Source: Catalinimonas alkaloidigena (GTDB lineage: Bacteria > Bacteroidota > Bacteroidia > Cytophagales > Cyclobacteriaceae). From it: a DNA stretch of 64,000 bases. The notes under the pieces were generated by a model, which searched no databases, had not been told where the DNA came from, and worked only from the letters and a program-made list of their open reading frames with translations. The position numbers and the translations under genes are program-made. The DNA is taken from NCBI RefSeq assembly GCF_029504655.1, contig NZ_JAQFIL010000001.1, positions 5,151,001 through 5,215,000 on the forward strand. Reading direction: 5' to 3'. Shown piece after piece: positions 6,101 to 46,208 of the stretch (positions within the stretch are counted from its first letter, which is position 1; each line of letters begins with the position of its first letter).

Positions 6101-6160
6101 GCTTAATACTTAATAACTTTAATGGCATTGATTTAACTTTGGTGATCCTTCTTAAACGAT

Positions 6161-6934: not shown

Positions 6935-6980
6935 TTTCTTAGCATAACAAACAACTACTTCTTTTTCAAATACTGTATAC

Positions 6981-10701: not shown

Positions 10702-11693
10702 CTTTCTTGCTCTATGTCAATATGTCTTCTCTTTTTCTTTCGCTCAGCAAAGAGTTCCTCATCCTCTCCTGTTTCCTGGCCTAGCTTCTGGATACCTTTG
10801 GCAAAGCTGCTTATTGACCTTTCCGGATATGTGATCTTATCCTCTTTTCCTTTTTCAAGCACCTGGTATGGATCATGGACAAGCTTTCCCTGCTGGTAAT
10901 GCTGGGTTAATCGGTACAGGTTAAAGAAGAATCCTTTTCCGTATTGCTTCTCTTCAGCAATGGACAAAGCTTTGTCTACCTCTACCTTCTGGTTTCCCAC
11001 AAAGTACTGGTTCAGGTATTCCACCCTATACCGGATACGTTCCCGATGCCTCTCTACCTGCTCCTGAGGCATGCCTTGTGTAAGCTTTTCTGAGATTGTC
11101 GCTTTCTCATAGCCAAACATTTGCTGAAAGGTCTTTCCATTCTGCACCTGCCAGTCTTTGAAAGTGAAGTGGCTTTTTCTTCCTCTGGGATTGAGTCTGT
11201 GCTCTCCAGATTTGTCCTTTGCACTCACCAGAATATGAATGTGGGTATGGTTACCGTTTTTGGTTTGTCCTTTTTGCTCACCTTCTTTTTCCTTCCGCTC
11301 CTCATGAAAGGTAGCAAACCAGATGATGTCAGAAGATCTTAATCTCTTCTTATTGGGTAAGTTAAAATTCCCGGCATAGTTCTCCATCACTTGCTGAGTA
11401 TAACTTTTTAGCTTTTGTGGATCATTTCCAATATGTTCCAATTCTGAAGGAGAGGGAGAAAGCACCAGGGAATAGAACTTTTCCTGATGTTTTCTCAAGC
11501 CTTTGGTATTACCATCAATGACCTCTTTCACCTGCCCTGCCCTGATATCTGATTTTTCATCGTTGAAGAAGCTGGCCTCCTTATCCTGTTCTCTTGCTTC
11601 GTGTCCCAAATAGCTAACGGTCTTACTACTGGAAGTGCGATTGGCAAACACAAATCGTCCATCCCTTCTGGGGTTAATGATTTTACTGTGCAT
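10698..11693 (-). CDS. MobB-like relaxase (DUF5712-type)
   Basis: A 331-residue mobilisation nuclease. The metal-binding histidines are seen in HTHIHI (His149, 151, 153), the HUH-like motif of this family; Tyr105 or nearby tyrosines could be the DNA-attacking residue. The charged C-terminus is typical. It should nick the transfer origin and pilot the strand. It lies between a BfmA/BtgA-like gene and the coupling protein, the usual mob order in Bacteroidota elements. The family assignment to DUF5712 is from memory of the motif pattern. Confidence 0.85.
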   Translation of the reverse strand: MHSKIINPRRDGRFVFANRTSSSKTVSYLGHEAREQDKEASFFNDEKSDIRAGQVKEVIDGNTKGLRKHQEKFYSLVLSPSPSELEHIGNDPQKLKSYTQQVMENYAGNFNLPNKKRLRSSDIIWFATFHEERKEKEGEQKGQTKNGNHTHIHILVSAKDKSGEHRLNPRGRKSHFTFKDWQVQNGKTFQQMFGYEKATISEKLTQGMPQEQVERHRERIRYRVEYLNQYFVGNQKVEVDKALSIAEEKQYGKGFFFNLYRLTQHYQQGKLVHDPYQVLEKGKEDKITYPERSISSFAKGIQKLGQETGEDEELFAERKKKRRHIDIEQER

Positions 11694-11716
11694 TGGCTAA
11701 AGTTTGGAGTTTAGGG

Positions 11717-11760
11717 TTTACCTCGGATTTGATCCTGAAATATATTCAGGACCTGATCCG
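11717..11760 (-). repeat. Intergenic hairpin and leader repeat upstream of mobB
   Basis: TTTACCTCGGATTTGATCC (11717-11735) matches 16795-16813 with one difference (T/C). Both copies lie 13-40 bases before a start codon on the minus strand, so the transcripts carry a shared GGATCAARTCCGAGGTAAAC leader containing an SD-like GAGGT. At this copy a dyad around TCCTGAA / TTCAGGA, extended by CGGA..GATC / GATCCGG, could form a hairpin. Confidence 0.5.
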
Positions 11761-11772
11761 GAGTTTAAGTGC

Positions 11773-12204
11773 TTATGGTTTTGAAGATTGATTACTAGCA
11801 TCCAACTGATCAGCCACCTGGCGTAAGCGTTCTGACAAGTATTGCTGATCCTGTTGCTGTAATTGCTTGTAAGTAGCCTGATCTTCTGTAATGAGAGTAA
11901 GCAAATGGTTGACTGCCAATTCACCCATGATTCGTGCCTTACTGGCTTCGGTATGCATGGCCCTCAAGATATGCTGTTCCTGAAAAACCAGGTAAGAGAA
12001 AATACGGTCCACAGCATGGCGCAACAACTGGGCAAACTCATCACTCTGTCCTGCCTGATAACTTCGTGGGTCAATCTTGCGGGAAAGGAAGAACTCTCCT
12101 GCTGCTTCCAGGTACTCTTTGTAAGAGAGTTTGAGCCGCTGAGACTCCGCTTCCAACCGCTTGTGAAAAGCGCTGGATACGTTTACTTTTTTAGAGGTAC
12201 TCAT
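11773..12204 (-). CDS. BfmA/BtgA-like mobilisation protein
   Basis: A 143-residue, all-helical protein. The N-terminus KVNVSSAFHKRLEAESQRL resembles the DNA-binding start of BfmA/BtgA mobilisation accessory proteins, and the rest is a predicted helical bundle. Such proteins bind near oriT and help the relaxase. It sits directly upstream of mobB on the same strand, the arrangement seen in Bacteroides mobilisable elements. The nearest non-coding stretch, 12205-12361, is a reasonable place to look for oriT. Confidence 0.75.
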   Translation of the reverse strand: MSTSKKVNVSSAFHKRLEAESQRLKLSYKEYLEAAGEFFLSRKIDPRSYQAGQSDEFAQLLRHAVDRIFSYLVFQEQHILRAMHTEASKARIMGELAVNHLLTLITEDQATYKQLQQQDQQYLSERLRQVADQLDASNQSSKP

Positions 12205-12289
12205 GTATAGGTACTTGTTTGATGTTGATAATGAGAGGGTTAAAGGGCAAAAGTACTTTCCATAAAAACCATGTTTTTACAACTATTTG

Positions 12290-12303
12290 AAATACAAGTA
12301 TTT
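12290..12303. promoter_or_regulatory. AT-rich palindrome upstream of the BtgA-like gene
   Basis: AAATACAAGTATTT is a perfect palindrome with a 2-bp centre, about 86 bases before the BtgA-like start. It may be an operator or part of oriT. No transcription factor can be assigned. Confidence 0.3.
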
Positions 12304-12361
12304 ACAAAGAACTTGCACTTACCCATCTTGCTGTGAAAAACTCTGGATTTATTCATTAGCA

Positions 12362-13045
12362 CTACTTCCTTCTGTCCGGTGCTTCCACTGGAAAGCTGAT
12401 CAAATTGAACATTTCCCTCAGCCGGGAGCGTACCCGGTCGCCGTACAATCGTTCCAGTGTGTCGGCGCTCAGATTGGTGGTCATATGGGTAAGCATGCCG
12501 TAACGGACGAACTGATCGTAACGGTCCAGTAAAATCTCAGCCATGACATTGCAGCCGTTTCCATAGACTTTCGTGTTGGGTTCCACCCCCAGGTCATCAA
12601 AGCAGTAGGTAATCGGCTGGTCGTACTGCAATATCGGACCATGCCCTAAATGCTTCTTTCGGAAGGACTGTGTTCCGTAGCGTTCCAAGACTGAATGACC
12701 ATCCTTGATAAAATTTTTGGCGATATCCCGGGTAGCTACCAGATGGAAACGTTGATGGGCAAACAACTGCATGATGGTTGTTTTACCACAGCCTACCGGA
12801 CCGAGCAAAAATAAGCCCTTTTCCGGATTGATGCCCAGTTTCTGATGCCAAGTCTCATTACTAGTAAAATAAGCCAGTACAGCCTCTAAAACCGGGCGAT
12901 TTGTGGCGTCCACAGTGAAGTTGGGTATCGTGCTTTGCGCGTGCTCTACAAAACACTCCCACAGGCTTTCAAATTTCATAGGATTAGGTTCGTTAGAGCG
13001 GAATGCTGTAGTCTTGCCTTCCACCGGTGTGTAATCTGCTTGCAT
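12362..13045 (-). CDS. DnaC/IstB-like P-loop ATPase
   Basis: An ATPase with Walker A GPVGCGKTT and Walker B YCFDDLG, followed by the sensor region LTHMTTNLSADTLERLYGDRV and the arginine-rich RSRLREMF typical of DnaC/IstB helicase loaders. Three starts are possible: 13117 (overlaps the upstream gene by 125 bases), 13045 (53-base overlap, chosen) and 12979 (13 bases after the upstream stop). The P-loop domain is intact with any of them. With the HTH protein upstream it probably forms a replication or helicase-loading unit of the element. Confidence 0.8.
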   Translation of the reverse strand: MQADYTPVEGKTTAFRSNEPNPMKFESLWECFVEHAQSTIPNFTVDATNRPVLEAVLAYFTSNETWHQKLGINPEKGLFLLGPVGCGKTTIMQLFAHQRFHLVATRDIAKNFIKDGHSVLERYGTQSFRKKHLGHGPILQYDQPITYCFDDLGVEPNTKVYGNGCNVMAEILLDRYDQFVRYGMLTHMTTNLSADTLERLYGDRVRSRLREMFNLISFPVEAPDRRK

Positions 13046-13880
13046 AGGGGTCAAAGTTTGGAGATGAGATATCGTTTCTTGAAAGTTTACTTGCTTGATT
13101 AGCATAGTCTTTGGCATTGAGTAGCCAGTTGTTGGCCGCTGCCTGCCAGTCCTGCATATCGTTACGGCCTACTTTCCAGCCATTGGCTTCGTAGTAGTTG
13201 ACAAAGCGAAGGGCCTGTCCTCGGGCAGTGAGGCTATCCGGGCAGAGTTCTGACTGGCTTTTCATGTACTCCTCCACCTCACTCACCGAAGGCTTGACAA
13301 ACTTCTGGGTTGGTTCTTTTTTTCTTGGAGGGGGGGACGCCGCAACCGGGGGGGAGGTTGAAGTTTGGCGCTTTACCTCGCCAGTAATAGATCTCCTTTC
13401 TTCTGGTTTTTTTTCTCCTTGCTCCCTCCACTTTAAAGTAGATGAATCAAGGGTAGATACACTATGTATTCGATCATTATAATCGATAAAATTATTAATA
13501 AGGTGTAACTGCCCATCCGATCTATTATTCAGTAGACCGGCCTCTACTTTTGAGTTGCCCCCATCTACTGAAGAAGGGGGTGGGGCACCCTTTTCCGGTA
13601 GATCGCTGTTGATAAAAATTTTACGTTGATTTCCGTGACAAACTTCAACCTTTATATACCCTTGTTCAGCAAGCTGGTTGATCCAACGAGAGGCCACTTT
13701 AGCTTGCACATTGTAGAGAAATGCCAGGTGGTTGTTACCCGCCCAGCAGTAGCCTTGCTGATCACAGAGGGCTTTGATTTCACCGTACAAGAGCTTGGCG
13801 TGGGCGGACAGATTAGGATCAAAACGTACCTGCGCTGGCAGATTGATCTGGTAAGTGGGTAATGAGTGCTCCTTTCTCAT
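12993..13880 (-). CDS. Winged-helix replication-type protein
   Basis: About 295 residues from ATG 13880. The N-terminal 90 residues form a winged helix of the RepA/DnaD-like kind: INLPAQVRFDPNLSAHAKLL, then WAGNNHLAFLY and ASRWINQLAEQGYIKVEV. A low-complexity linker (Arg, Pro, Thr) follows and a C-terminal helical segment (EVEEYMKSQSELCPDSLTAR onward) resembles the tail of phage-type replication proteins. The ATG overlaps the TGA of the upstream HTH gene (ATGA). A longer frame runs to 14051 but would overlap that gene, so it is rejected. Confidence 0.75.
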   Translation of the reverse strand: MRKEHSLPTYQINLPAQVRFDPNLSAHAKLLYGEIKALCDQQGYCWAGNNHLAFLYNVQAKVASRWINQLAEQGYIKVEVCHGNQRKIFINSDLPEKGAPPPSSVDGGNSKVEAGLLNNRSDGQLHLINNFIDYNDRIHSVSTLDSSTLKWREQGEKKPEERRSITGEVKRQTSTSPPVAASPPPRKKEPTQKFVKPSVSEVEEYMKSQSELCPDSLTARGQALRFVNYYEANGWKVGRNDMQDWQAAANNWLLNAKDYANQASKLSRNDISSPNFDPYASRLHTGGRQDYSIPL

Positions 13881-14155
13881 AGCTGATGGGCGTTTACCAG
13901 GTTCTCCTCTATGACTTTCATAATGCCGTCGTAAGGGTAGTAAATCACTCCACCTACTTTGCTGTAGGGTAAGGTGCCGTTGATGCGAAGGTTTTGTAGT
14001 GTTCCCGCTGAGATGGCCAGCATCTTCCTGACTTCCGGGGAGCGCAGCCATCGCTTTGGTTCATGATGGGACTTAGAAAGAACCACTTTAAGTTCTTCTA
14101 CCAGCTCCTGCTTGAAAAGAAACAGGTCATCGGTGGTGATAATTTGTGCAGACAT
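13877..14155 (-). CDS. Excisionase-type helix-turn-helix protein
   Basis: 92 residues from ATG 14155. The core WLRSPEVRKMLAISAGTLQN followed by LRINGTLPYSKVGGVIYY is the MerR/Xis-like HTH_17 fold common in Bacteroidota mobile elements. It probably binds DNA at an origin, att site or promoter of the element. It begins an overlapping run with the replication protein and ATPase. Confidence 0.8.
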   Translation of the reverse strand: MSAQIITTDDLFLFKQELVEELKVVLSKSHHEPKRWLRSPEVRKMLAISAGTLQNLRINGTLPYSKVGGVIYYPYDGIMKVIEENLVNAHQL

Positions 14156-14224
14156 AATTTCAATTTTTGTTGATGAATAATATGTCTGCAAGTAGAAAAA
14201 AAGAGGAATACCAAAACAGTTAAC

Positions 14225-14240
14225 GGGGTTAATCAACCCC
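14225..14240. promoter_or_regulatory. Palindrome GGGGTT-AATC-AACCCC upstream of the HTH gene
   Basis: A 6-bp perfect stem with a 4-bp centre, 70 bases upstream of the HTH start on the minus strand. It could be an autoregulatory operator or a hairpin in the leader. Unassigned. Confidence 0.35.
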
Positions 14241-14373
14241 CTGTAAACCCCTTGACAATCAGAAGATTATAAATTTATTTTTTTTGATTCCCCTTACTTT
14301 TGTATAGTGAAAAGTAGCAAGATTTTAACTGCTTTACTCCAGAATGAAGACTGTTTTGGCCTATGTTTACCTG

Positions 14374-15882
14374 CTACGATATTTTGTTTAAGTAATTCAG
14401 CATGGCAATGACTTTGTCCTTCAATATGGATATGGTATGCTGGTCATGCTGATAGAATTTAGCTTTCAGGCTTTTGGCCGACACTTCCTCTTGTTGAGTA
14501 GAGCTTAAGATCTCACTAAAGCGCCGGTAGATATTATTTTGATTCTGCTCTGGAAAAAGATCTACCTCCAAAAATAATTTTATCAAAAGTGAGACTTGTG
14601 CCACTGAAAGGTTGGTCTTGACCTTTTCATCATTGATAGTAAGCAAGGGTTCAGACACTAGTGAAGGATACTTTTCCAGGTAAGCAATCTCTTCCCTGAG
14701 CCAGCCTAAAATTCGTTCATTTGCTGATATGTTTTCTGTTTGTAAGCTGTACTGAACAGGCAACTGCTTGCAGAATTTTTGGTAGTAGTACAAAATTCCT
14801 AGCTTTTCACTTTTTGTTTGCTGTATGTCTAATTTTACTTTCAATCGGTCAATAAACCACCCTACAAATGATTCGTCGTCAAAATTGTGGGAAATCAATA
14901 CCGTAGTCAGTTCTTCTTCATTGAAATGTCTTTCATTTACTATTTTTTCAAGTCCCTGCAAAAGCTGTTGGTACTTTCTTAATTGAAGATAACTGGCTTT
15001 CTGATGGGCAAGCCCCTTGATTTTGACAAAAAAGCCTGATAGAATGCCGTGTAGGGATGGATCTACCTCAGACTGTGCTAAAGCATTTTGAACTGTGTTA
15101 AGCTGCCCCGACAAGTGGTTAAGGATCTGTATATGATCGTGATAAGGAACTGCTGCATGGATGTCTATATACTGGGCAAATTGCTTTTCAATAAAGCCAA
15201 TGAGTTCTTGTAACCCCAGGAAAATGTGCTTAGAAATGTCCGGGAGGCTATATTCACCTGAGAAAGTATACATCAGCAAATCTGTGTCCCCCAATTGTTC
15301 CATGAGGTGTCTGGCATAAGTGATTAATGTTTGCTGATGGTCCTGCACATACTTTTGGGCTACATCCTTTGAAGCAGCCTGAAAGGTGTAGTTAAGCATT
15401 TTCTGCTGTACCAATGCTACCTGCTCAATCAAAAGCTTTTGGTAAAAGTGGTAACGTCTTTCCTCAAAGCTTAAGGAATCCAATGGATAATAAGCATACA
15501 GTTCCAAGTGAACGCTACCGCTTTCATCTTGCCAGTGGTACCATTCAATGATTGATTCAGAGGCAAGGGAAAGCCGTTGTAGTACCATGTCTAAAAGTAC
15601 TTCACCTGCTTGCTGTTCGTAGACTTGTACTTTATGGTTTAAAGCTACAAATACTGGAGGGCGATAGCGGTCTAAAAGTTTTATGTCAAGGGATTCAACT
15701 GAAAGTGACTGATCTTCAGATTGCCCAAACCGAGCATGAATTTGTCTGGCGCAAGTCTTTGGCACTTCTGAAAGGTGCTTATAAAACCGGGCTTGCTCTG
15801 AAGGTTCAGTAGGAAAATACAAAGGTGACAGGCTTCCCTGTACTACTTGGTGAATGATGTTGAGTTCGTAGGACACAATCAT
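14374..15882 (-). CDS. Unknown 502-residue protein of the conjugative element
   Basis: Not recognised. The protein is largely helical with no signal peptide or membrane helix. The C-terminal 80 residues (from KTNLSVAQVSLLIKLF to the end) have the pattern of a helical tail seen, as far as I recall, in Bacteroidota mobile-element proteins: an LS-x-Q-hydrophobic start, then an iS-x-x-S-L-K-x-K-F-Y motif. It stands alone between the HTH gene and a membrane protein gene, both on the minus strand. Confidence 0.65.
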   Translation of the reverse strand: MIVSYELNIIHQVVQGSLSPLYFPTEPSEQARFYKHLSEVPKTCARQIHARFGQSEDQSLSVESLDIKLLDRYRPPVFVALNHKVQVYEQQAGEVLLDMVLQRLSLASESIIEWYHWQDESGSVHLELYAYYPLDSLSFEERRYHFYQKLLIEQVALVQQKMLNYTFQAASKDVAQKYVQDHQQTLITYARHLMEQLGDTDLLMYTFSGEYSLPDISKHIFLGLQELIGFIEKQFAQYIDIHAAVPYHDHIQILNHLSGQLNTVQNALAQSEVDPSLHGILSGFFVKIKGLAHQKASYLQLRKYQQLLQGLEKIVNERHFNEEELTTVLISHNFDDESFVGWFIDRLKVKLDIQQTKSEKLGILYYYQKFCKQLPVQYSLQTENISANERILGWLREEIAYLEKYPSLVSEPLLTINDEKVKTNLSVAQVSLLIKLFLEVDLFPEQNQNNIYRRFSEILSSTQQEEVSAKSLKAKFYQHDQHTISILKDKVIAMLNYLNKIS

Positions 15883-21582: not shown

Positions 21583-22506
21583 TCAATCTCCCCCCTCGTT
21601 ATTACCTAGTATATAATCTACTGCTTTCTGGGCGTGTTGGGCTGCTTCTACGACGAAACGCTTGTCATCATGCAGTACTTTGAGCCATCCCTGGATATAG
21701 GCAGCTGAATCGGTAAGTTCTTCTTCGGTTTGCAATCCCATCAGGTTGGAAAGGAAGCTTGCTCCCATCTCGGCAATAAGTTCCTCTTGGCCATACGTCC
21801 ATGAGCCAAAACGTTGGGGTTCAGTGACACTGGTACGGTTCAGGCGCTTTTGGTGGCCAGTAGCATGCGTAAGTTCGTGGTAAAGTACCTGAAAATACGC
21901 TTCGGTGCTATAAAATGCTGTCATGGGTGGCATATTGATGTAGTCCCTTTTTGGGTGGTAGAAGGGCGTATTGCTCTCGGTCTTGACAGCTACCGGATGC
22001 GGCATGGTGTTAAGAGGTTGTAAGCCTTGCATCAGTTTGTCTTCATCATTTAAAATTAAGGTGTTTTCAGACGGTAAATCAAAGGCAATACCTTCGGTAT
22101 CCTGGATATTAAATACTGAATAGTAGCGCAGGAAGGCTTTGCGTTCCACTTCAGTATTAGGCAGAGCTTTGGCTTCTTCTTCAGTGAGCTTGCGGCCGGT
22201 AAGCTTGCGGTAAAAATTCCACTGCCAGTAGATCACCGGAAGCGATTTGGAACCCTTCTTTATTCTTCCTCCCAGTTGTTGGGCTTGCCGGAAAGTGAGG
22301 AAGTAAGGCTGGGCAAAGTTAAAGCAGTTGAGCAATAATGCATTGATGCCACGATAGGGTTTCTTGGTGAGATAATTGGCAGCTGGGCCTTGAGCGTTCC
22401 AGCGTTGTTTCCAGGGGATGACACCTTGGTCTAATTTGTCAAGGATAATGTCAGTGATTATCTGGTAGACATCCTGACGTACCGGGGATTTTCCGTGCTT
22501 TTTCAT
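21583..22506 (-). CDS. ArdC-like antirestriction protein
   Basis: 307 residues from ATG 22506; the longer frame to 22599 has an unlikely N-terminus. The N-terminal ssDNA-binding domain (DVYQIITDIILDKLDQGVIP, then WKQRW, then PYRGINALLL) is followed by a zincin metallopeptidase domain with HELTH, a further His in ATGHQKRL and Glu in EELIAEMG. ArdC homologues protect incoming plasmid ssDNA or block restriction during conjugation. Its presence supports the view that 8.2-38.8 kb is one mobile element. Confidence 0.92.
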   Translation of the reverse strand: MKKHGKSPVRQDVYQIITDIILDKLDQGVIPWKQRWNAQGPAANYLTKKPYRGINALLLNCFNFAQPYFLTFRQAQQLGGRIKKGSKSLPVIYWQWNFYRKLTGRKLTEEEAKALPNTEVERKAFLRYYSVFNIQDTEGIAFDLPSENTLILNDEDKLMQGLQPLNTMPHPVAVKTESNTPFYHPKRDYINMPPMTAFYSTEAYFQVLYHELTHATGHQKRLNRTSVTEPQRFGSWTYGQEELIAEMGASFLSNLMGLQTEEELTDSAAYIQGWLKVLHDDKRFVVEAAQHAQKAVDYILGNNEGGD

Positions 22507-23132
22507 ACGTGTAATGGGTTTGTGTCCCGGGGTGGGACGGTGAAAAAAATTGATGAGCAGACTATCAGGCTTGAGGCTGGAATTCGGGCAACGAAGCAAC
22601 GGAATAAACTAGCGGAGGGATTGAGGGATAGCTTTATGCCGGAATTTCTTGCTTATTTTCCAGCAACCAAGCCTAAATTGCTCTATCCATTTGCATGAAC
22701 CTTGTGCGGTGGGTATTTGTATTTTTTGTAATACTTGAGAGTGTATTTAAAAAAAAAGACCAGTAGTAGAAGGATTGGGCGGCTATAGAATTGACTAATC
22801 CGTTTACTTGAGGAGCTTGAGTCTAGGAAAAGCTTTAGTAGACAATTTTACTTGGCTAAATAAGTCAGTTCGTAGAGCAATGTTTTGAAAACCCCACCAA
22901 TGGCGAATTACTATGTGATGATAAAAATGAAGCACTAATTAAAATCTGGCTACCAGAAAACAATAAATATATTCTCGAGAGCACATTTCAGTTGTACTTC
23001 CCTACTGAAAAGCAATGACTGGATTAGTTGAAAAAGCTTGATAAATAGCGACAAATAAAATTTTTTGTTTAATTGCACATGTACTATTATTATTTGTTTT
23101 ATACAAAGACTTCAATTTAATACCTAAACTTA
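22507..23132. other. Gap upstream of the Argonaute gene
   Basis: About 625 bases with no intact gene. The last 100 bases before 23133 are AT-rich and should contain the promoter of the Argonaute fusion. A gene remnant is seen at 22860-23018. Nothing else is recognised. Confidence 0.4.
22860..23018 (+). pseudogene. Short coding-like remnant upstream of the Argonaute gene
   Basis: An open frame of 52 codons without ATG start, ending at TGA 23016-23018. The translation is protein-like (for example DDKNEALIKIWLPENNKYI then LESTFQLYFPTEK). A preceding in-frame TAA and a coding-like stretch in another frame suggest a truncated, frameshifted gene. Family unknown. It may mark the left edge of the inserted defence cargo. 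Confidence 0.3.
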
Positions 23133-26100
23133 ATGTCGAACAACTACTTACCAAAAGAAGTATATGATAATCCAGGAAGGTATTGGGATTTTCTAACCGT
23201 CAGCGATGACAGGAGTTTTGAGGGGCAGCACTTTGATAGAAAAGAAGTTTGCAGAGCAGGATCAAATGGACAAGTAAGTAGAGGCGACCTTAAAAACTTT
23301 CGGAACAGTCAGATAGCTGAAACAATATCTGCATTTGCTAATGAAAACAAGGAAGGTGGATTGTTAGTATTGGGCATAGCTTCTGATGGAAGTGTACCGG
23401 GTTTAAATCATCTATCTGAGGAACAAGTAAATTCACTATGTAGCATAGACTATTTGGTGGGTCATAATTATCAAGCAAAAGTTCATAAACAAACAGTAGT
23501 AGGAAACGACGTAGAAATAGTTTTGATCTATACCTCCTGCTCCGTTAACACTATTTGCGCTACTGTAGGTCAGTCCCGCAAAGCTTTCCGAAGAGGTGGC
23601 ATACAGAATTTGGAACTAAATGATCAAGACGTCGAAAGGCTAAAAAGAGAAAAAGGAATTGTAGATTATGAGAATACTAATTGCTCAAGGTTTAGCGAAG
23701 ATGAAGTAGATCAAGGTGTTTACAGAGAATTTGTCAAAGGCTTTTTGAGTAATACTTCCTACGAATGGGCTACTATTGATTGTTTAAAGCGCGCTGGTGG
23801 CATTGATATCACCGGAGAATGGTTCACTAACGCTGGAAAATTGTTTTTCTCTCAGTTTCCGGGAAACAGTATCGCACACGCGTATATCCGATTGCTGCGT
23901 TTTGATAGTTCCTATGAAGAACGTGACAACCGCCCCACTCCCACATATGATAAAAAATTCAAGGGACCCTTAACAAAGCAAATCCGCGACTTCAGGACAT
24001 TCATAAGCGAATCAGCTTTCTTCGAAACCTATCAGAAACGAAAAGAAGGTGGTGGATTTACCGACGAGCCGGAATACCCCCTTATCGCTATTGATGAGGC
24101 TGTTGTTAATGCTGTAGCGCATAGAGATTATGCTATCACTCGCCCTATCCAATGTGAAAAATATACAGATGCTTTCGTAGTAATCAATCCTGGTAATATT
24201 ATTCAAGATCACAGCGTCCCTGATCATTTCTCTCTGGATGATACAAGGCTACAGCACTACAGCAGAAATCCTAAGATTATGGAATGGTTGGGTCAAATGA
24301 AGGATGTGCAGGGTAGAGCCTTTGTGTTAGCCTTACAAGAAGGAACCCGAAGGATGCGTGAAGAGACGGCTAAGCTTGGTTTACCCGCGCCTGAATACAA
24401 GACGACAGCCGTCGAAACTACATTGGTACTTAGAAACAATGCTTCGCTTCGTAAAGACGTACCAAATCTTAACGCAGCCGAAGGTTACCCTGAGTACACT
24501 AATCTGTATCGGCTAACCGGATTCTCTGATAATATTGAAGAAAACAGACAACGCCGTCGTGAGATATTATCAACTTTTAAAAATAAGCTAGCAGCCAACG
24601 GTTGGTTTATTGACAAAGACAGATATGGACTCCTAGTAGCACATAGAAAAGGATTATCTAACCCAGCACCTGATAAGGTATCAGAGATTGTTCGGTTGTT
24701 CCCAGCTTATTCTTTTCAAATTAGGCAATACTTCGGAAAGCAATATTTGATAGTAGACTATACAGTAGAACTACAAAGCGTAATCAATCTAGCTACGTGC
24801 CTCGAGTGCTTTTCAACGCAAGTTTTAAATGGTTATAGTTTAAGATGTATGGCTAACCTTCAAGGATGGTCTAAAGGCAAGATAACTACCGTTGAAAGCG
24901 AATACAGCGAAGTATTTGTCTTTAATACTGATTTGGTAGAGAAGATACCTAACAGTAAAATAATTCCAAGGTTACCTTTGGCACTTATTGAAAAGGTGTT
25001 GGAAAGGAAGAATGTCCGCTACGATTTAACCAAAGAAATTAAAAAAGCTTCTCTGATGCAGGGTAGAGATGCTTCAAGACTGCGGGCTGAGCGCACCCAA
25101 AATCTAGTTGATGATCTGCTACGAAATATTTTTCCACTTAGCTTTTCTAATCAAGCAATCTCTCTAGCAAGTACACCTCTGCTTATATCTTCTCGTGGCG
25201 ATGGACTCCATCAATTGAAAGCAGATAGCCTAAAAGAGCCGCAAGTTGAATTTTCTAGACACCATGCTGAAGCAGATATAAGGCAAGGGATTACCGCTTT
25301 TGGCTCTTACGAGAACAATCCTAAAGATGTAGAGATCATCCCTCTGTGTAGCCGGGCTCTCACATCGCAGATGGAAGATTTGATTAGTAGACTAAGAAAT
25401 GGAAAATTTAAATTCAAGGGAAGCGAAAGAACGTTCGGAACCAAATTTCTCTATAGTACCATCATCAATGCAGACCAAGAGCATCTGGAGAAAGAGGTAA
25501 AGAGACTATTAGAACAACACCCAAACTGGTACGGTAATACTAATCTACCAAGAATATTTCTGGTTCATTGTCCAAATGAGGGATATGCGAAGGATGATGA
25601 GAACTCTCCTTACTACAAAGTCAAGAGAATACTATTTGAAGCAGGGATACCTTGCCAAATGATCAGTTCAGCCACTCTATCAAATCCCGATTTCAAAGAC
25701 TTGAATCTAGCCTTGAATATCGTTGCCAAATGCGGACAGACACCTTGGGTGCTTCCAGAATCTATTCCTGATTGTGACTTTTTCGTTGGCTTATCGTATA
25801 CCCAAAGCTCTAGAGCGCAAAACAGTCGCCTGATGGCATTCGCTAACGTATTTAATCAATACGGAAGATGGGAATTTTATTCAGGAGGTAGTGACGCTTT
25901 TTCTTTCGAAGAAAAAGCTAAGCATTACGATCAACTTGTAAAAACTACACTGGCCAGACTTGACCTTTCAGAAGAGCCTACGGTTTGTTTTCACTACTCA
26001 GCTAAGTTCTCCAAAGAAGACCGAAAGGTAATTTTACAAGCTGCTAGAAGTATCCGCCCCAGAGGAAACTATGTGTTTGTCTGGATTAATACAGATCACA

Positions 26101-26483
26101 AACTACGTTTCTACGACAGCCGCGCTGAAACTAACGGAAGTTTAGCCAGAGGTAGATATGTTGTCGGTAGTAGTAATCAAATCTATCTCTCTACTTCCGG
26201 TCATAACCCTTATCGGAATGCTTTGGGAACGCCCAAAGCTTTAGAAATTAACGTCTACAGTGAGGATGCAAACGGAAGAGTTATTGAACCGGACATGCGA
26301 ATTTTCGCCTCTCATGTGTTAAGCTTAACTAAGCTAAACTGGGCATCTACAGATTCTTGGTGTGCTGAACCGATCACTACTAAGTACGCAGGAAATATAG
26401 CCTATCTAACGGCGGCCTTCCTCCGGCAAGGAGGTAATTTTAAACTTCATTCAGCTTTGGAAAGAACTCCTTGGTTTATTTAA
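23133..26483 (+). CDS. AlbA_2(Schlafen)-HATPase-MID-PIWI single-chain prokaryotic Argonaute
   Basis: 1116 residues. Residues 25-175 form an AlbA_2/Schlafen domain (FDRKEV; IAETISAFANENKEGGLLVL, then GIASDG). Residues 225-440 form a RecG-like HATPase_c_4 domain (YPLIAIDEAVVNAVAHRDYA; VVINPGNI). The rest is Argonaute: an N/L1- or APAZ-like region (about 510-790), a MID domain with the 5'-phosphate pocket Tyr827, Lys831, Gln842, Lys866 at the spacing of YK-type pAgos, and a PIWI domain to the C-terminus (ITTKYAGNIAYL). The PIWI catalytic aspartates are lost: Ser888 in VGLSYT, Ser956 in FHYSAKF, and Gly1087 where the last tetrad residue should lie. No PAZ is evident. It should bind guides but not slice; the effector would be the N-terminal half. 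It sits in defence cargo beside an AbiE pair. Confidence 0.85.
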   Translation: MSNNYLPKEVYDNPGRYWDFLTVSDDRSFEGQHFDRKEVCRAGSNGQVSRGDLKNFRNSQIAETISAFANENKEGGLLVLGIASDGSVPGLNHLSEEQVNSLCSIDYLVGHNYQAKVHKQTVVGNDVEIVLIYTSCSVNTICATVGQSRKAFRRGGIQNLELNDQDVERLKREKGIVDYENTNCSRFSEDEVDQGVYREFVKGFLSNTSYEWATIDCLKRAGGIDITGEWFTNAGKLFFSQFPGNSIAHAYIRLLRFDSSYEERDNRPTPTYDKKFKGPLTKQIRDFRTFISESAFFETYQKRKEGGGFTDEPEYPLIAIDEAVVNAVAHRDYAITRPIQCEKYTDAFVVINPGNIIQDHSVPDHFSLDDTRLQHYSRNPKIMEWLGQMKDVQGRAFVLALQEGTRRMREETAKLGLPAPEYKTTAVETTLVLRNNASLRKDVPNLNAAEGYPEYTNLYRLTGFSDNIEENRQRRREILSTFKNKLAANGWFIDKDRYGLLVAHRKGLSNPAPDKVSEIVRLFPAYSFQIRQYFGKQYLIVDYTVELQSVINLATCLECFSTQVLNGYSLRCMANLQGWSKGKITTVESEYSEVFVFNTDLVEKIPNSKIIPRLPLALIEKVLERKNVRYDLTKEIKKASLMQGRDASRLRAERTQNLVDDLLRNIFPLSFSNQAISLASTPLLISSRGDGLHQLKADSLKEPQVEFSRHHAEADIRQGITAFGSYENNPKDVEIIPLCSRALTSQMEDLISRLRNGKFKFKGSERTFGTKFLYSTIINADQEHLEKEVKRLLEQHPNWYGNTNLPRIFLVHCPNEGYAKDDENSPYYKVKRILFEAGIPCQMISSATLSNPDFKDLNLALNIVAKCGQTPWVLPESIPDCDFFVGLSYTQSSRAQNSRLMAFANVFNQYGRWEFYSGGSDAFSFEEKAKHYDQLVKTTLARLDLSEEPTVCFHYSAKFSKEDRKVILQAARSIRPRGNYVFVWINTDHKLRFYDSRAETNGSLARGRYVVGSSNQIYLSTSGHNPYRNALGTPKALEINVYSEDANGRVIEPDMRIFASHVLSLTKLNWASTDSWCAEPITTKYAGNIAYLTAAFLRQGGNFKLHSALERTPWFI

Positions 26484-26702: not shown

Positions 26703-27518
26703 TTATCTGAGGTTCAATCCATCTTCCACCAAAGATTTTACCCAATCAAAAGCTTTGTCCGCATCGTAAGTTATACCAGGTCGTAAAAGTCCTTCCAGAT
26801 CTCCTGTAAAATCAGGGTTTGCTTGTTTCTCTTCCAGGTTAAGCAGGAATTGTTTCGCGGTGGGGGACTTACCTACTACAAATGCCATATACTCCTGATA
26901 ACAATGTATGAGCTGATCTCTATCAAAGGCTATATGCTGATCTGCATAGAATAAGTCAAAGAGATCTCTGCCTTTGCTGCGCTGGTATAATGCCCTGAGT
27001 TTGGTGCCTAATAATTCGTTGATATGATAGGTGGTAATTTCAGCTTTGCCGGAGAACCAATCATTGCTGACTTTAAAAGGAAAAGATTGCCACTCCAATA
27101 CATTAAAATGTTCCCTGCAATTGATCTCTATTTTTAAGCGCAGCCGTATGTCCGGTGCATACTCAGAATAAAAGCGGTAAAGCAAAGTATTGTTATTGGC
27201 CTTAACTTTCACCACTCTTTCTTCTTCAAAAAAGTTGATAACCTCTCCAATCTGCTTCAAGATAGGCTTGATGGGGCCTTCTTTGATCTGTACCAGATCA
27301 ATATCTTCGGAATACCTTGGAGGCGGAATGTCGCCCACAGGTTTCAGGTAGAGTTTGTGCAGTGCGGTACCTCCTCTGAAGGCCAGATTTTCCCTAAGGA
27401 AATCATCTGAAAACAAAGCGACCAGTGTTCGGGAGATGATCAGGTCTTGCTCTACCTGTTCGTTTGTATTCCAGGGAGCATGATCTTTCCATTGGGCTAT
27501 GTATGGTTTAGGAATCAT
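26703..27518 (-). CDS. AbiEii-family nucleotidyltransferase toxin
   Basis: 271 residues. The nucleotidyltransferase core is seen as FRGGTALHKLYL (Gly49-Gly50-Thr51) and YSEDIDLV (Asp72, Asp74). AbiEii-type toxins use NTPs to modify RNA, tRNA in the studied MenT relatives, and arrest growth. The start overlaps the stop of the upstream antitoxin gene by 4 bases (ATGA), which is the classic AbiE operon layout. Confidence 0.92.
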   Translation of the reverse strand: MIPKPYIAQWKDHAPWNTNEQVEQDLIISRTLVALFSDDFLRENLAFRGGTALHKLYLKPVGDIPPPRYSEDIDLVQIKEGPIKPILKQIGEVINFFEEERVVKVKANNNTLLYRFYSEYAPDIRLRLKIEINCREHFNVLEWQSFPFKVSNDWFSGKAEITTYHINELLGTKLRALYQRSKGRDLFDLFYADQHIAFDRDQLIHCYQEYMAFVVGKSPTAKQFLLNLEEKQANPDFTGDLEGLLRPGITYDADKAFDWVKSLVEDGLNLR

Positions 27519-28309
27519 AAATCACTTTCAAGTACTATGTTGGCATCTATTTTCCAGCGGTTACCTGTGCTGCCGGCTTTCTGTCCTTTATGTGGGCTTA
27601 GCAGAGTAGAAAAAAAATTCTCTTTGCTGAGGTGACCGTAAATGACCTGAGCTAAGTTATTATTCAGTTCTATTTCCTCCAACAGGAAACCCATGCGCTG
27701 TAACACACTTTTATTATGATACCAGGTAAGCAGGTCTTCTACATCCTTTTTCTCTAAAGATTCTGAAAGTTCTTCTAAAATAGCCAGCATCCGGTTTAAG
27801 CCGCCTAACTGATGTTGGTTTTCAATTAAGTCCGCAAAGGTGAGTGCCGGAGAGGAAAGTTTGAAATATCCTGCATCCGATTTTTTTTGTATGATGTTTT
27901 TATCCGGCCAGTTCTGGCTGTTGAAGAACCTGATTTTGATATTTCCTTTAGTAATATTTCTCAATGCCGGTGGCACGGTGATCATATAATCCTGCTGAAC
28001 CCTTTGGTGTGCTGCACCTAAATAGGCTGCTGCTGAATAGAAGCCGATATAATAGGGTTTCTTTAAAAATTTGAAGAGCTTCTCTACATATAGTTCAAGG
28101 GGTAATTTGCCGTAATGCTGATAACGCGGAGGAATGATAAGATAAAATCCTTTCCGGAGGTTGATGACCTGCCGGTCAGAGGAAAGCCTGGCGAGCTCTT
28201 TTCTGACCGATGACTCTGGGGCAGCCGTCTTTTGCAGCAACTCCTCTGTGGAGAAAGCAAATTCCTCGTAAGATTGTAGTTCTCTGACAAATGCTGCTAC
28301 AGTGCCCAT
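27515..28309 (-). CDS. AbiEi-family antitoxin and transcriptional repressor
   Basis: 264 residues. N-terminal winged helix (about 1-60; FSTEELLQKTAAPESSVRKE, then RKGFYLIIPPRY) for DNA binding, then the AbiEi C-terminal domain (YYIGFYSAAAYLGAAHQR; LSSPALTFADLI). AbiEi proteins neutralise the toxin and repress their own promoter by binding inverted repeats. A suitable dyad is found at 28322-28360 just upstream of the start. Confidence 0.9.
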   Translation of the reverse strand: MGTVAAFVRELQSYEEFAFSTEELLQKTAAPESSVRKELARLSSDRQVINLRKGFYLIIPPRYQHYGKLPLELYVEKLFKFLKKPYYIGFYSAAAYLGAAHQRVQQDYMITVPPALRNITKGNIKIRFFNSQNWPDKNIIQKKSDAGYFKLSSPALTFADLIENQHQLGGLNRMLAILEELSESLEKKDVEDLLTWYHNKSVLQRMGFLLEEIELNNNLAQVIYGHLSKENFFSTLLSPHKGQKAGSTGNRWKIDANIVLESDL

Positions 28310-29392: not shown

Positions 29393-29698
29393 ATGAAATC
29401 ATTTAAATCCATTGAAAGAAAAGCACAGCTGCTGGGACTGCCCATGCAGGATTTGTTTGCTCTGCTCTTTGGTTTGGCGCTGGCCATGGTGCTGGGCATT
29501 GTGATCAACTTCTTTTTGCCGGTAAGCAAGTATTATTTCTTTGCGGTGCTGGCAGCAACCGTTATTGCTTTCTTTCTTTTGAAGCGCGTCAATCTGCGTC
29601 GGCATCCCAGTTTTCTTTTCTCTTTGCTTTCCTATCGTTTCTTTCAGCCTAAGTGTTTGGAAGTCTGGGGAAATAGGAGAAATGATCTATCAAAATGA
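29393..29698 (+). CDS. TraF-like conjugation protein (DUF4133 type, VirB3-like)
   Basis: 101 residues with two membrane helices (about 22-42 and 48-65) and a basic C-terminus (LLKRVNLRRHPSFLFSLLSY). VirB3-like proteins associate with the VirB4 ATPase, whose gene overlaps this stop by 4 bases. Confidence 0.78.
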   Translation: MKSFKSIERKAQLLGLPMQDLFALLFGLALAMVLGIVINFFLPVSKYYFFAVLAATVIAFFLLKRVNLRRHPSFLFSLLSYRFFQPKCLEVWGNRRNDLSK

Positions 29699-32214
29699 CT
29701 ACTATTAAATCCACATTAAACCAAACCATGTTGATCAAACCAGTTAAGAAAAAATCTGCCTACTTGCGTGACCGGCTTCCCATCTTTGCTTTGGAAGAAG
29801 ATAAAGTCATCTTCAAAGACGGAAGGGTAGGCATAGGCTTTCGTGTGTCTGGGGCTCCATTAGAGTCCTGGACGGAAAGCCAGTACAGTCAGGCCAATGA
29901 TGTGCTCAGCCAGCAGCTCAAGATGCTGCCGGTGGGCACCGTAGTGCAAAAGACGGATGTCTATTTTGACAAAGAATACAAAGCAGAAAACATAAAGAGC
30001 TCAGCTTACTATGAATCTAAACTGCATGAGCATTTCTTTGCCCGATTAACGCTTTTGCATGAGAGTTATCTGTTTCTTTCTTTTCCCAGCAGGGCCAAAG
30101 GAAGAATGGACAACACATCTATTCACCGGATCAACCCAGTGAGCAGCATGTTTGCTTATGGAGGATCAATCTTAAAAAATCCATTTGATGGCATAGAGGA
30201 CTTACTCAAAGAAGCTGAAAATCTGGCATCCTCCTTTATCAAAGGACTCTACAGTTTAAAAGATGTGTCATTTAGCAGACTTAAAGAAGAGGAGTTGAAT
30301 CACCTGTACCTGCGCTACCTCAATCTTTCTTTTGATGAGTCGTGTACAAGTCTCAACCGGGTGATCTACAATGATCTTTCAGGTCTTGCAGTGGGAGAAA
30401 AGAAAGCCAATGTCATTACTATGACCGGTCAAGGCAGTGAAGTCTTTGCCAGTGTCAAAAATCACTATGGAGTGAGTAGTCCCTATACCTATCAGCTATC
30501 CCAGTACATGCAATTTCCTCATGTGGTAACCCAGAGTTTGCTGGTGGAAGACACTGAAAAAGAGCTGAAAAACCTGGACTTCGAGAGAAAATTGAACGAT
30601 TCACTAGAGTGGCTCACCACCCAGGATCATGAGTTGAAATCTCGGGAATTAGAAGAGTTCACCGCTTATGTCAGATCAGGTAACACTGGCCTTGTGAGCC
30701 TTCATCAGTCAGTGATGGTCTTTGAGAGTGATGAGCCCTTAAGGAAATCCTATGTTGAAAGGACCATCTCAGCCATTCGTCAGTTCTATGGAGCAGAGGC
30801 TATTGTGGAGAGTTTTGATACGGCTAATCTATTCTTTGCTTCTTTGCCGGGCAACGGTTTTCAGCACTACCGCTGGCTCATCACCTCCGCTGACCTTGCT
30901 GCCTGTTACCTGCACTTTATGACTTCTTGGCATGGAGAACGAGTAGGCGACTACCTTTGTGACAGGTTTGGCAATCTTTTGCTGGTAAATCTCTTTAACA
31001 CCCGGCAAGCCAATCAGAACTGTGTAGTCATTGGCCCTTCAGGTTCTGGCAAGTCTTACACTATGGGTAACTTCATTGCCCAGAGGTTAGAGCGAGGTGC
31101 CCGGCAGATCATCATTGACAAAGGAGGTACATACAGGAATGTGATCTATGCCCTGAATGGTAAACGGTTTGATGAGACCTATTTTGAATACAGTGCGGAA
31201 AAGCCCCTGGCTTTTAATCCATTCTTGTTAGAGAAAGATAAGCAAGGAAAGTATGTGCTTACGGCAGAGAAGAGTAACTTCTTGATTGCAGTGCTAAGCA
31301 CCATTTGGAAAGGAGGTAAATCAGAAGGATCAACTAGCCAGGACTTGAAGCCTGCTGAAAGGGCAATCTTCAAATTGATCCTTCCACGATACTACCAACA
31401 TCTGGATGAGAACCCTTCATCCTATCCGGGGGTTAACTCTTTCTTTCATTTCCTTCGGCAGTACCACAGGATTCACCACACAGAAGAAGAATACCGCTCT
31501 GAGATCAGGTACTTTGATATGGAGCAGTTCTTAACGGTGCTGAGGCCTTTTGTCTCGGGAGAATATCGGCAAGTGCTCAATGCAGTACAGGAGATTAGCA
31601 TCAGTGAGCATAGACTTGTTTGTTTTGACATGGACAAGATCAATACTGATCCGGTTTTGTATCCACTGGTAACACTTCTAATCACTGAACTTGCCCTGGA
31701 CCAGATCAGAAAGTATCCTGATGAAATCAAGTACCTCTATCTGGATGAAGCCTGGACTATGCTTTCAGGAAGCTTGCAGGAGTTTATCAATGAGCTTTTT
31801 AGAACGATTAGAAAAAATAACGGTGCTGTTTGCATCATCACACAAGGCTTGGGAGAGATCAAAAAGTCCAGTGTAGGCGAAGCAGTACTGGTCAATGCTG
31901 ATACTAAGATCATCTTAAAGCATCAGGACAAAAGGCTGGTAAGTGAACTGGCGGCCCATCTTGGCTTTACCGATCATGAAGTAGACCTGATCCACTCCAT
32001 GAGGGTAGAGAAGTCATTTAGAGAACTCTTCATTAAGCAGGGAGAAGAAGCAAGAGTCTTCAGACTGGAAACCTCTCCTCATATGGATGCGGTGCTTTCT
32101 TCCAAACCCGAAGAGCGAAACTATCTCAAGAAGCTCATTGAGCGCTATCAGGGCAATCTGCCTTTTGCTGTCAACCAATTTGTTCAAAATTCCAGATTGA
32201 AGATTACAAATTGA
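29695..32214 (+). CDS. traG: TraG, VirB4-family conjugation ATPase
   Basis: 839 residues. The N-terminal domain (1-400) is the VirB4/TraG N region. Walker A GPSGSGKS lies near residue 445 and Walker B YLYLDEAWTML near residue 682; the tail LGFTDHEVDLIHSM is family-typical. It powers substrate transfer and pilus assembly in the type IV machinery. The stop region starts an AT-rich inverted repeat that reaches the next start codon. Confidence 0.93.
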   Translation: MTTIKSTLNQTMLIKPVKKKSAYLRDRLPIFALEEDKVIFKDGRVGIGFRVSGAPLESWTESQYSQANDVLSQQLKMLPVGTVVQKTDVYFDKEYKAENIKSSAYYESKLHEHFFARLTLLHESYLFLSFPSRAKGRMDNTSIHRINPVSSMFAYGGSILKNPFDGIEDLLKEAENLASSFIKGLYSLKDVSFSRLKEEELNHLYLRYLNLSFDESCTSLNRVIYNDLSGLAVGEKKANVITMTGQGSEVFASVKNHYGVSSPYTYQLSQYMQFPHVVTQSLLVEDTEKELKNLDFERKLNDSLEWLTTQDHELKSRELEEFTAYVRSGNTGLVSLHQSVMVFESDEPLRKSYVERTISAIRQFYGAEAIVESFDTANLFFASLPGNGFQHYRWLITSADLAACYLHFMTSWHGERVGDYLCDRFGNLLLVNLFNTRQANQNCVVIGPSGSGKSYTMGNFIAQRLERGARQIIIDKGGTYRNVIYALNGKRFDETYFEYSAEKPLAFNPFLLEKDKQGKYVLTAEKSNFLIAVLSTIWKGGKSEGSTSQDLKPAERAIFKLILPRYYQHLDENPSSYPGVNSFFHFLRQYHRIHHTEEEYRSEIRYFDMEQFLTVLRPFVSGEYRQVLNAVQEISISEHRLVCFDMDKINTDPVLYPLVTLLITELALDQIRKYPDEIKYLYLDEAWTMLSGSLQEFINELFRTIRKNNGAVCIITQGLGEIKKSSVGEAVLVNADTKIILKHQDKRLVSELAAHLGFTDHEVDLIHSMRVEKSFRELFIKQGEEARVFRLETSPHMDAVLSSKPEERNYLKKLIERYQGNLPFAVNQFVQNSRLKITN

Positions 32215-34751: not shown

Positions 34752-35801
34752 ATGGATTTTAAAGATAATATTGATGAGGAGCATATAAACGCTGAAAAGC
34801 TTCGCTTTGAAGCCCCGGTGGCAGCCAAAAGCTGGAAAGAGAAACTCCTGAAAAACTTATCCAGATACAGTCTCTTACTCATTGTAGGTGTAGCAGCGGT
34901 GTTTATTACATTGCTACACTTCAAGGGTCAAGGACTTTTACAGGCACTAAAAGGTACACCTCTGCCAAGCTTTGGCTGGGAAGAGAATATTCATCCTAAA
35001 AGCCTTCCGGATAAGACAGCCGTCTATGAGGAAGTGCTCAAAAAAGAAGCAAAGGAAAGAAGAAAAGAGATGTCTAGTAAAGCCTCAGCGAAACTAAAAG
35101 TGACAAATCCTGATTGGCAGATGATGCATCAAAAAGTGAATCCTAAAGCTGTATCGGTAGATGACTCTGTTTATATAGTCGCCGATACATTGAAAACAGT
35201 AGTGGTTCAGGCTGCACCTCAGCACGAAATTAGGTATAGAAAGAATACTGCAAAACCAATAAAAAGAAAACCCCAGCTTGCCCAAAAAGCAGCAGCAGTG
35301 ATCCAACAAGAAATTGAGGTGAAAAGCACAGATTTCTTTCAGCCGGTGAGAGTAGCTGCTACTGCTTCTCAACAAAGCTTTACAGCCTGTGTAGTGCATG
35401 AAGATCAGCTGTTGAGCAACAACAGCATGCTGAGCCTGCGGTTAACGGAAGATTTGTCTTTTGATGGACAAAGCTTTCCTGTGGGAACCATCTTGTATGG
35501 AACAGCAAGAATAGCCCAGAACCGTATCCTGGTTATGGTTTCAAGGATTCTTCAGACTCCGGTACAATTGCAGGTCCATCATCATACCTATCATGAAGGT
35601 ATTTTGCTGGATGAATCTAAAAATGTACTGGAAGAAGCCACAAGGCAAACGGTTTACCGTCAGGGACAGCGGTCTGTGCAGGATCTTCCTTTAGATGTCG
35701 CTACTGAACTGGGACGCAATATCCTGCAAGGCTCCAGAAGAAAGAAGATCACGATCTTTTTACCGGACGGCTTTCCCCTGTATTTATCTAAAGAAAATTA
35801 A
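34752..35801 (+). CDS. traM: TraM-like conjugation protein (VirB10-like)
   Basis: 349 residues: short cytoplasmic N-terminus, one membrane helix (about 38-55), a charged linker rich in Lys/Glu, and a C-terminal VirB10-like domain (FTACVVHEDQLLSNNSMLSL, FPVGTILYGTARI, ITIFLPDGFPLYL). It should bridge inner and outer membrane parts of the mating channel. Confidence 0.85.
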   Translation: MDFKDNIDEEHINAEKLRFEAPVAAKSWKEKLLKNLSRYSLLLIVGVAAVFITLLHFKGQGLLQALKGTPLPSFGWEENIHPKSLPDKTAVYEEVLKKEAKERRKEMSSKASAKLKVTNPDWQMMHQKVNPKAVSVDDSVYIVADTLKTVVVQAAPQHEIRYRKNTAKPIKRKPQLAQKAAAVIQQEIEVKSTDFFQPVRVAATASQQSFTACVVHEDQLLSNNSMLSLRLTEDLSFDGQSFPVGTILYGTARIAQNRILVMVSRILQTPVQLQVHHHTYHEGILLDESKNVLEEATRQTVYRQGQRSVQDLPLDVATELGRNILQGSRRKKITIFLPDGFPLYLSKEN

Positions 35802-44982: not shown

Positions 44983-45002
44983 GAACTCATTTACGTGAGT
45001 TC
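44983..45002 (-). terminator. Hairpin at the end of the efflux operon
   Basis: GAACTCA (44983-44989) pairs with TGAGTTC (44996-45002), which includes part of the TolC-family stop codon. On the minus strand TCTTATT follows, a weak T-run, so this may be an inefficient terminator. Confidence 0.45.
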
Positions 45003-46191: not shown

Positions 46192-46208
46192 AGCATAGGA
46201 TGCGTTAA

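Follow-up and report, generated by a model that had tools for sequence, protein, structure and literature searches.

Where catalytically inactive prokaryotic Argonautes (pAgos) are known to act through an effector, the partner is a nuclease, a Sir2 protein, a TIR protein or a membrane protein. In the long-B systems BPAN, BPAS and BPAM, as presented by Song et al. in 2023 (PMC10620215), the inactive long pAgo is a guide-directed sensor, and the toxic effector (a nuclease, a Sir2 protein or a membrane protein) is the product of a separate downstream gene; in the same paper EcAgo is the sensor of a system that becomes active when a guide RNA directs recognition of DNA. SPARTA, SPARSA and SPARDA likewise combine a dead PIWI domain with an effector; they have no N/PAZ lobe and work with APAZ proteins. 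Fusions of an AlbA_2 domain to several long-B pAgos were recorded by Ryazansky et al. in 2018 (PMC6299218), where AlbA_2 is termed a DNA-binding domain. Here we describe a gene of this last kind at 23133..26483 (+ strand) of a 64,000-nucleotide stretch of the Catalinimonas alkaloidigena genome (contig NZ_JAQFIL010000001.1, hereafter the window), in which a Schlafen (AlbA_2) domain, a GHKL ATPase and an Argonaute are joined in one chain of 1116 residues. On balance, we lean towards reading the product as a single-chain defence protein, in which a guide-loaded DNA sensor would switch an ATP-dependent Schlafen effector in cis.

Schlafens have been linked both to bacterial defence and to PIWI pathways. 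In at least 1017 taxa, BREX and related systems are reported to have backup effectors that are Schlafen RNases with a minimal histidine-kinase domain, and for the BREX-linked proteins a winged helix behind the ATPase is described (PMC12839542). PUCH, a Schlafen-like trimer of C. elegans, cuts precursors of PIWI-interacting RNAs (piRNAs) at the 5' end (PMC10567574). Among the neighbours of pAgos, PMC6299218 names HsdS proteins (og_11), and it also lists a group of APAZ proteins (og_40) that carry SIR2 and Schlafen domains. Its available text does not mention the Schlafen module fused to HsdS or without an Argonaute, and the words RecG and DHS are absent from its main text. AlbA, Schlafen and RecG are unmentioned in the main text of PMC2743648 (2009), and in the available part of PMC3710099 Schlafen appears solely with HEPN domains. 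No functional study of a Schlafen-Argonaute fusion was found among the titles listed by our literature search.

The initial annotation had suggested a new immune architecture. This is not the case: the window protein is the same fusion as the AlbA_2-fused long-B pAgos recorded in 2018, and PADLOC model PDLC02394 (labelled just 'pAgo', 1121 positions) matches residues 7-1116 with 1631 bits. Since the model spans the entire chain, beyond the Argonaute half, the fusion family has already been modelled. What is new, as far as the literature search shows, is that the N-terminal half is read as an entire Schlafen-ATPase, together with the pattern of guide pocket and catalytic tetrad across the clade, the partial Schlafen centre, and the exchange of Argonaute and HsdS on one module.

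Domain order and conserved sites of the fused protein

The open reading frame (ORF) comprises 1116 uninterrupted codons. Three Pfam models exceeded their gathering scores: SLFN_AlbA_2 (PF04326, 31.5 bits, residues 30-139, 23220..23549), HATPase_c_4 (PF13749, 32.7 bits, residues 338-433, 24144..24431) and Piwi (PF02171, 36 bits, residues 822-1094, 25596..26414), the last match starting inside MID. Residues 5-440 (23145..24452) thus hold an AlbA_2 domain followed by a RecG-type GHKL ATPase, which is the domain order of bacterial Schlafens, and the Schlafen-type module in cis that had been proposed for this gene was confirmed. Its architecture is that of the BREX backup effectors, whose genes also adjoin defence systems (PMC12839542); unlike those proteins, the window protein adds a C-terminal Argonaute and has lost the aligned third acid of the nuclease centre (see below). 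A chance or frameshift artefact was considered and ruled out, as a search for homologues with the same domain order returned 11 further full-length fused proteins.

The Argonaute frame is complete (N, L1, PAZ-like, L2, MID and PIWI; residues 453-1114, 24489..26474), in contrast to SPARTA, SPARSA and SPARDA. Residues 451-1114, including an N-PAZ lobe, align to RsAgo 19-774, and a structure model of the Argonaute half, although of mediocre quality, aligned to RsAgo 19-736, with RsAgo as the top Foldseek match. Apart from 3lmm, nearly all of the 50 listed fold matches for the whole chain are titled Argonaute, PIWI or short-pAgo. By sequence profile the nearest solved relative is EcAgo (98.2 bits; the runner-up scored 61.5). 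Matches of PADLOC Aga_SIR2 models fell in the ATPase half (residues 231-359 and 270-359), with a weak one at 1027-1090. In having MID and PIWI, an N-PAZ lobe, a lost tetrad and a YK-type pocket, the protein resembles the long, catalytically dead pAgos of the long-B type.

The pocket for the 5' end of the guide is predicted at Y827, K831, Q842 and K866 (25611..25730), which fall on the Y, K, Q and K of CpAgo, EcAgo and 6d95_A in profile alignments. These four residues are identical in all 12 full-length fused proteins (the window's included), so the claim of an intact pocket stands. The C-terminus is P-W-F-I (26469..26480), and PWF followed by I or L ends each of the 12 proteins; the terminal carboxylate of pAgos is part of the same pocket. 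The YK-type MID pocket is the long-pAgo type (PMC6299218). The PIWI tetrad shows the opposite pattern. S888, S956 and G1087 occupy columns that are non-acidic in every full-length fused protein (column 888: Ser 12; column 956: Ser 11, Thr 1; column 1087: Gly 7, Arg 3, Ser 1, Asn 1), and no homologue with a complete tetrad, which would have contradicted the proposed dead PIWI domain, was seen among the 12. A PIWI nuclease that is dead family-wide beside a retained pocket fits a guide-loaded sensor: judged by these residues, the Argonaute half seems still able to hold a small guide and no longer able to cut.

A quick MID-PIWI tree of 51 rows was built without bootstraps, from a sample drawn mainly from the window's phylum and without RsAgo, EcAgo, long-A or named reference pAgos; matches covering fewer than 200 profile positions were dropped, and the two incomplete fusions L074 and L077 were not candidates. 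The 12 fused Argonaute halves, from several phyla, form a single clade (Shimodaira-Hasegawa-like approximate likelihood ratio support, SH-aLRT, 99). A further 22 long pAgos in which the first tetrad Asp is likewise missing lie outside it. A single clade suggests that the fusion is old and has been retained. The nearest non-fused relative of the clade in this tree, a pAgo on an Adhaeribacter plasmid (L013:4203-8035) annotated as a topoisomerase zinc finger protein, has K, Q, Q, K in the pocket columns and an overlapping downstream gene of ~505 residues. Elsewhere in the sample, an open frame of 913 residues, counted stop to stop, starts at 2417 of L124 and encodes a long pAgo that lacks the first tetrad Asp and exceeds most sampled long pAgos in length.

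In the Schlafen module, conservation was scored in 14 fused rows, namely the 12 full-length proteins, L074, which is cut by a contig end, and L077, which stops at 833 residues. The candidate nuclease motif E30-x4-D35-x-K37 (23220..23243) aligns to E-x4-E-x-K of SLFN11, and E30, an acid (D or E) at 35 and K37 are retained in 14/14. The five-residue spacing of E30 and D35 equals that of E205 and E210 of rat SLFN13, which are pivotal for cleavage in a centre completed by D248 (PMC5862951). The ATP site appears intact: residues 321-333 (24093..24131), conserved in the N-module alignment, resemble a GHKL N-box. E322, N326, H330 and Y333 were found in 52/52 rows of that alignment and R331 in 51/52, and G404/T405 are retained in all 14 fused rows.

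One Schlafen module with Argonaute or HsdS in Poribacteria

The relatives of the module in Poribacteria (84 genomes, rows taken at E <= 1e-60) comprise 25 rows, four fused to Argonaute and 21 not. Restriction-modification (R-M) genes were named here by similarity to Pfam-checked genes of one Poribacteria locus, L015. On this basis 17 of the 21 non-Argonaute rows lie beside type I restriction genes (HsdR and/or HsdS), nine of them in the order HsdR-Schlafen-HsdS-HsdM, and one more (L092) is a split copy adjoining an HsdS fragment. Two of the 17 are in one frame with HsdS: a 985-residue fusion (L071:2091-5048, - strand), in which Pfam finds AlbA_2, HATPase_c_4 and Methylase_S, and a 920-residue fusion (L072:7441-10203, - strand), whose HsdS part was assigned by similarity. 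These come from two genomes and lie in different subclades of the N-module tree. Beyond Poribacteria, 466 matching plasmid records yielded no Schlafen-HsdS fusion at 80% coverage.

The Argonaute fusions occupy similar positions in part. At L014 and L015 the Schlafen-Argonaute ORF overlaps an HsdS ORF by 13 bases, between HsdR and HsdM, and at L014 a stand-alone Schlafen copy (9992-11257) lies directly upstream of the Schlafen-Argonaute gene (11599-14931) within one type I R-M operon, an arrangement for which a hetero-oligomeric pair is possible. The fetched stretch of L069 contains none of HsdR, HsdS and HsdM, and at L070 an HsdM-type gene is 5 kb off.

The N-module tree (52 rows, quick, root not inferred, five short-coverage matches dropped) groups the stand-alone, HsdS-fused and three of the Argonaute-fused Poribacteria rows in a clade of 21 (97). 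This joins (100) the window's all-fused clade of 10 (97), which includes the fourth Poribacteria fusion. The fused state changes five times on this tree, or three times if the starred branches alone are trusted. Thus, the Schlafen module of Poribacteria swaps its recognition partner, occurring alone, with Argonaute or with HsdS. A module joined either to guide-based or to sequence-based recognition of DNA favours a role as effector or switch over one in making guides.

Distribution and genomic setting

The window protein is 33-51% identical overall to its relatives. The other full-length fused proteins are WP_200805567 on plasmid 3 of Rubrobacter radiotolerans (50.6% identical to the window protein), proteins of four Poribacteria genomes (L014, L015, L069, L070), three from one genus of the window's own phylum (L066, L067, L073), one on an IMG/VR contig (L078), and one each from a Phycisphaerae (L017) and a Nanoarchaeia (L016) metagenome-assembled genome, which may be mis-binned. 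The family is rare. The sole full-length match in a search of 98 relatives was the window's own genome; a phylum sample gave fusions in 3/395 genomes, the window's own included, with a fourth match to the N-terminal half alone and 0/14 in controls. The family of one fused genome of the phylum had 4/16, one of the four truncated by a contig end, and Poribacteria 4/84. One of 60 matching plasmid records reached 80% query coverage (Rubrobacter), and 0 of 15 matching phage records did. Scanning genome contigs gave 0 loci with a one-sequence query and 10 loci, four of them fused, with a two-sequence alignment. Among the viral-contig scans, one was empty, one gave a 33-residue match (L076) and one gave eight loci, including L078 and L077, the latter a fusion without PIWI whose frame ends ~130 bases short of the end of its contig. 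The window's genome also has, on another contig, a distantly related second gene of AlbA_2-ATPase-like type (G000:C3:30089-30622, L002; 28% identity over residues 228-425).

The window gene is flanked by ArdC/RadC and an AbiEi/AbiEii pair. The ArdC-type antirestriction gene (21583..22599, - strand; PF08401 and PF18818) is on one side; the next gene on the other side is the convergent AbiEii nucleotidyltransferase toxin (26703..27518, - strand; PF08843), followed by the AbiEi antitoxin (27515..28309, - strand; PF09407). There is thus no separate effector gene directly downstream as in BPAN, BPAS and BPAM. Genes for conjugation occur on both sides, with a type IV coupling protein (8833-10701), TraG (29695-32214) and TraM (34752-35801), which bears out the conjugative setting described initially, and the fusion is therefore probably cargo of an integrated conjugative element.

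Neighbours were compared all-against-all at 13 loci (E <= 1e-5), and no effector-like gene common to the fused loci was found, which is what an effector in cis would predict. The AbiE system noted beside the gene does adjoin it, as Pfam confirms, but it was rejected as a shared partner because the pair is absent from the other fused loci compared. Neighbours shared beyond close relatives were N6-methylase-type genes and a few housekeeping-like ones (sulfatase, P-type ATPase); an N6-methylase-type gene is present in the fetched stretch of six of the 12 full-length fused loci (L014, L015, L016, L066, L070, L073). Fused locus L012 is near a Tn3 transposase. L067 is near a SIR2 protein and helicases, and the SIR2_2 protein and DEAD-box helicase upstream of its fused copy (L067:13430-17635, - strand) possibly form a further defence operon; a HATPase_c protein is encoded on the other side (5473-7491).

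Elsewhere in the window, the product of 62619-63908 is 43% identical to part of a P-type metal ATPase encoded by the Rubrobacter plasmid with the closest full-length relative found, and efflux pump genes of the resistance-nodulation-division type (OEP, AcrB-type) occupy 45001-49295. No tRNA genes were found in the window. A scan for promoter-like sites gave 13, against 10.6 in shuffled sequence, and one for terminator-like sites gave 11, against 3.5; neither was used as evidence.

Proposed mechanism and alternatives

In the reading to which we lean, the Argonaute half would bind a small guide with a 5' phosphate, which by analogy with RsAgo and EcAgo is probably RNA, and the guide would direct recognition of invader DNA without cutting. 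Recognition might be relayed by allosteric coupling to the Schlafen-ATPase half of that chain, and ATP binding, with probable oligomerisation, would bring AlbA_2 surfaces together. The output would be toxic or growth-arresting, most likely cleavage of RNA (tRNA), and cells bearing a plasmid or phage would stop. Guide and target chemistry, coupling, RNase output and defence itself are what we infer here; the defence role is suggested by the location among conjugation genes and near R-M and Abi genes. As in BPAN, BPAS and BPAM, a dead long pAgo would be the guide-directed sensor of a toxic effector, and EcAgo is the closest solved relative; here, however, the Schlafen-ATPase is in the same chain (compare PMC10620215).

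Several observations weigh against this reading. The third acid of the Schlafen centre aligns to A83 in the window, leaving the SLFN13-type triad incomplete with only E30 and D35, and is non-acidic in 12 of the 14 rows with the fusion, eight of which have A and four S; the other two have D and E. The column was set by a weak SLFN11 profile alignment (E 0.0079) and the 43-residue E205-D248 spacing of rat SLFN13, so that the mapping of Schlafen residues rests on sequence profile and spacing, not on a solved structure. The other clade rows with a letter here (n = 17) have A 12, T 4, D 1, and the outgroup rows (n = 20) have E 7, D 6, S 4, A 1, N 1, T 1. Column 84, directly after it, is D in 34 of 38 non-Argonaute rows (one of the 38 being a gap); in fused rows it is S 6, D 4, K 3, A 1, with S84 in the window. 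With the third acid and the adjoining D mostly lost, RNase activity may be gone. The tRNA or RNA nuclease raised as a possibility in the initial annotation is therefore half supported, by the invariant E30, acid 35 and K37 and not by the third acid; as the centre is just partly retained, we do not claim cleavage, and a tRNase reading is uncertain. The fused Argonaute clade, moreover, is on the short-pAgo side of the MID-PIWI tree (98), a placement in common with SPARTA, SPARSA and SPARDA, and is not nested in other long pAgos; its sister (94) is the Adhaeribacter long pAgo with a degenerate MID pocket. With this placement, RNA-guide/DNA-target chemistry is assigned by analogy with RsAgo and EcAgo. 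In Poribacteria, five of the 21 non-Argonaute rows match just part of the Schlafen module, and three (L075, L087, L090) have no R-M gene in the fetched stretch.

The third acid, missing from the window protein and from most of its clade, would suit by its absence an AlbA_2-ATPase half that is an ATP-gated nucleic-acid-binding or clamp module, dimerising the protein on target DNA and silencing or marking plasmids by binding. In the window's fused N-module clade all 10 rows have S, K or A in place of the next conserved D, which points the same way, as do the retained ATP site and the description of AlbA_2 as DNA-binding (PMC6299218). A pure binding role, however, has no obvious need for the invariance of E30, D/E35 and K37; E205 and E210, the SLFN13 counterparts of the two acids, are pivotal for cleavage (PMC5862951). 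We regard a clamp as a tentative alternative, rather less probable than a switched effector.

The invariant 5'-end pocket, the absence of a separate guide-making gene among shared neighbours and the precedent of PUCH, in which a Schlafen fold also works with a PIWI-family pathway (PMC10567574), would be accommodated if the Schlafen half cut cellular or invader RNA into 5'-phosphorylated small RNAs for the Argonaute half. PUCH differs in consisting of separate eukaryotic proteins that cut piRNA precursors, whereas the window protein is a covalent fusion. The partial active site also argues against guide-making, as does the Poribacteria family, where 21 of the 25 closely related modules lack an Argonaute and two are fused to HsdS, which uses no guide; we consider this role unlikely. 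A composite scheme seems similarly doubtful to us: one polypeptide would both make and use guides, the Schlafen half trimming RNA to 5'-phosphorylated guides and then, as an ATP-gated half, turning effector upon DNA recognition, with HsdS supplying specificity in relatives, so that guide- and sequence-programmed inputs would be interchangeable. Finally, rarity in the relatives and phylum samples and the premature stop of L077 before PIWI might indicate an inert or decaying cargo gene with no present role in its host. This is very improbable given the open frame and the retention of pocket, C-terminus and ATP site despite 33-51% identity to relatives.

If a guide-loaded sensor does switch the Schlafen-ATPase of its own chain, the fusion adds a type of output to those of dead pAgos and constitutes a guide-programmable switch encoded by a single gene. 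The swap between Argonaute and HsdS would identify prokaryotic Schlafens as general effectors that combine with differing DNA-recognition parts, and the covalent joining of Schlafen and PIWI makes the Schlafen-piRNA link of worms testable in bacteria.

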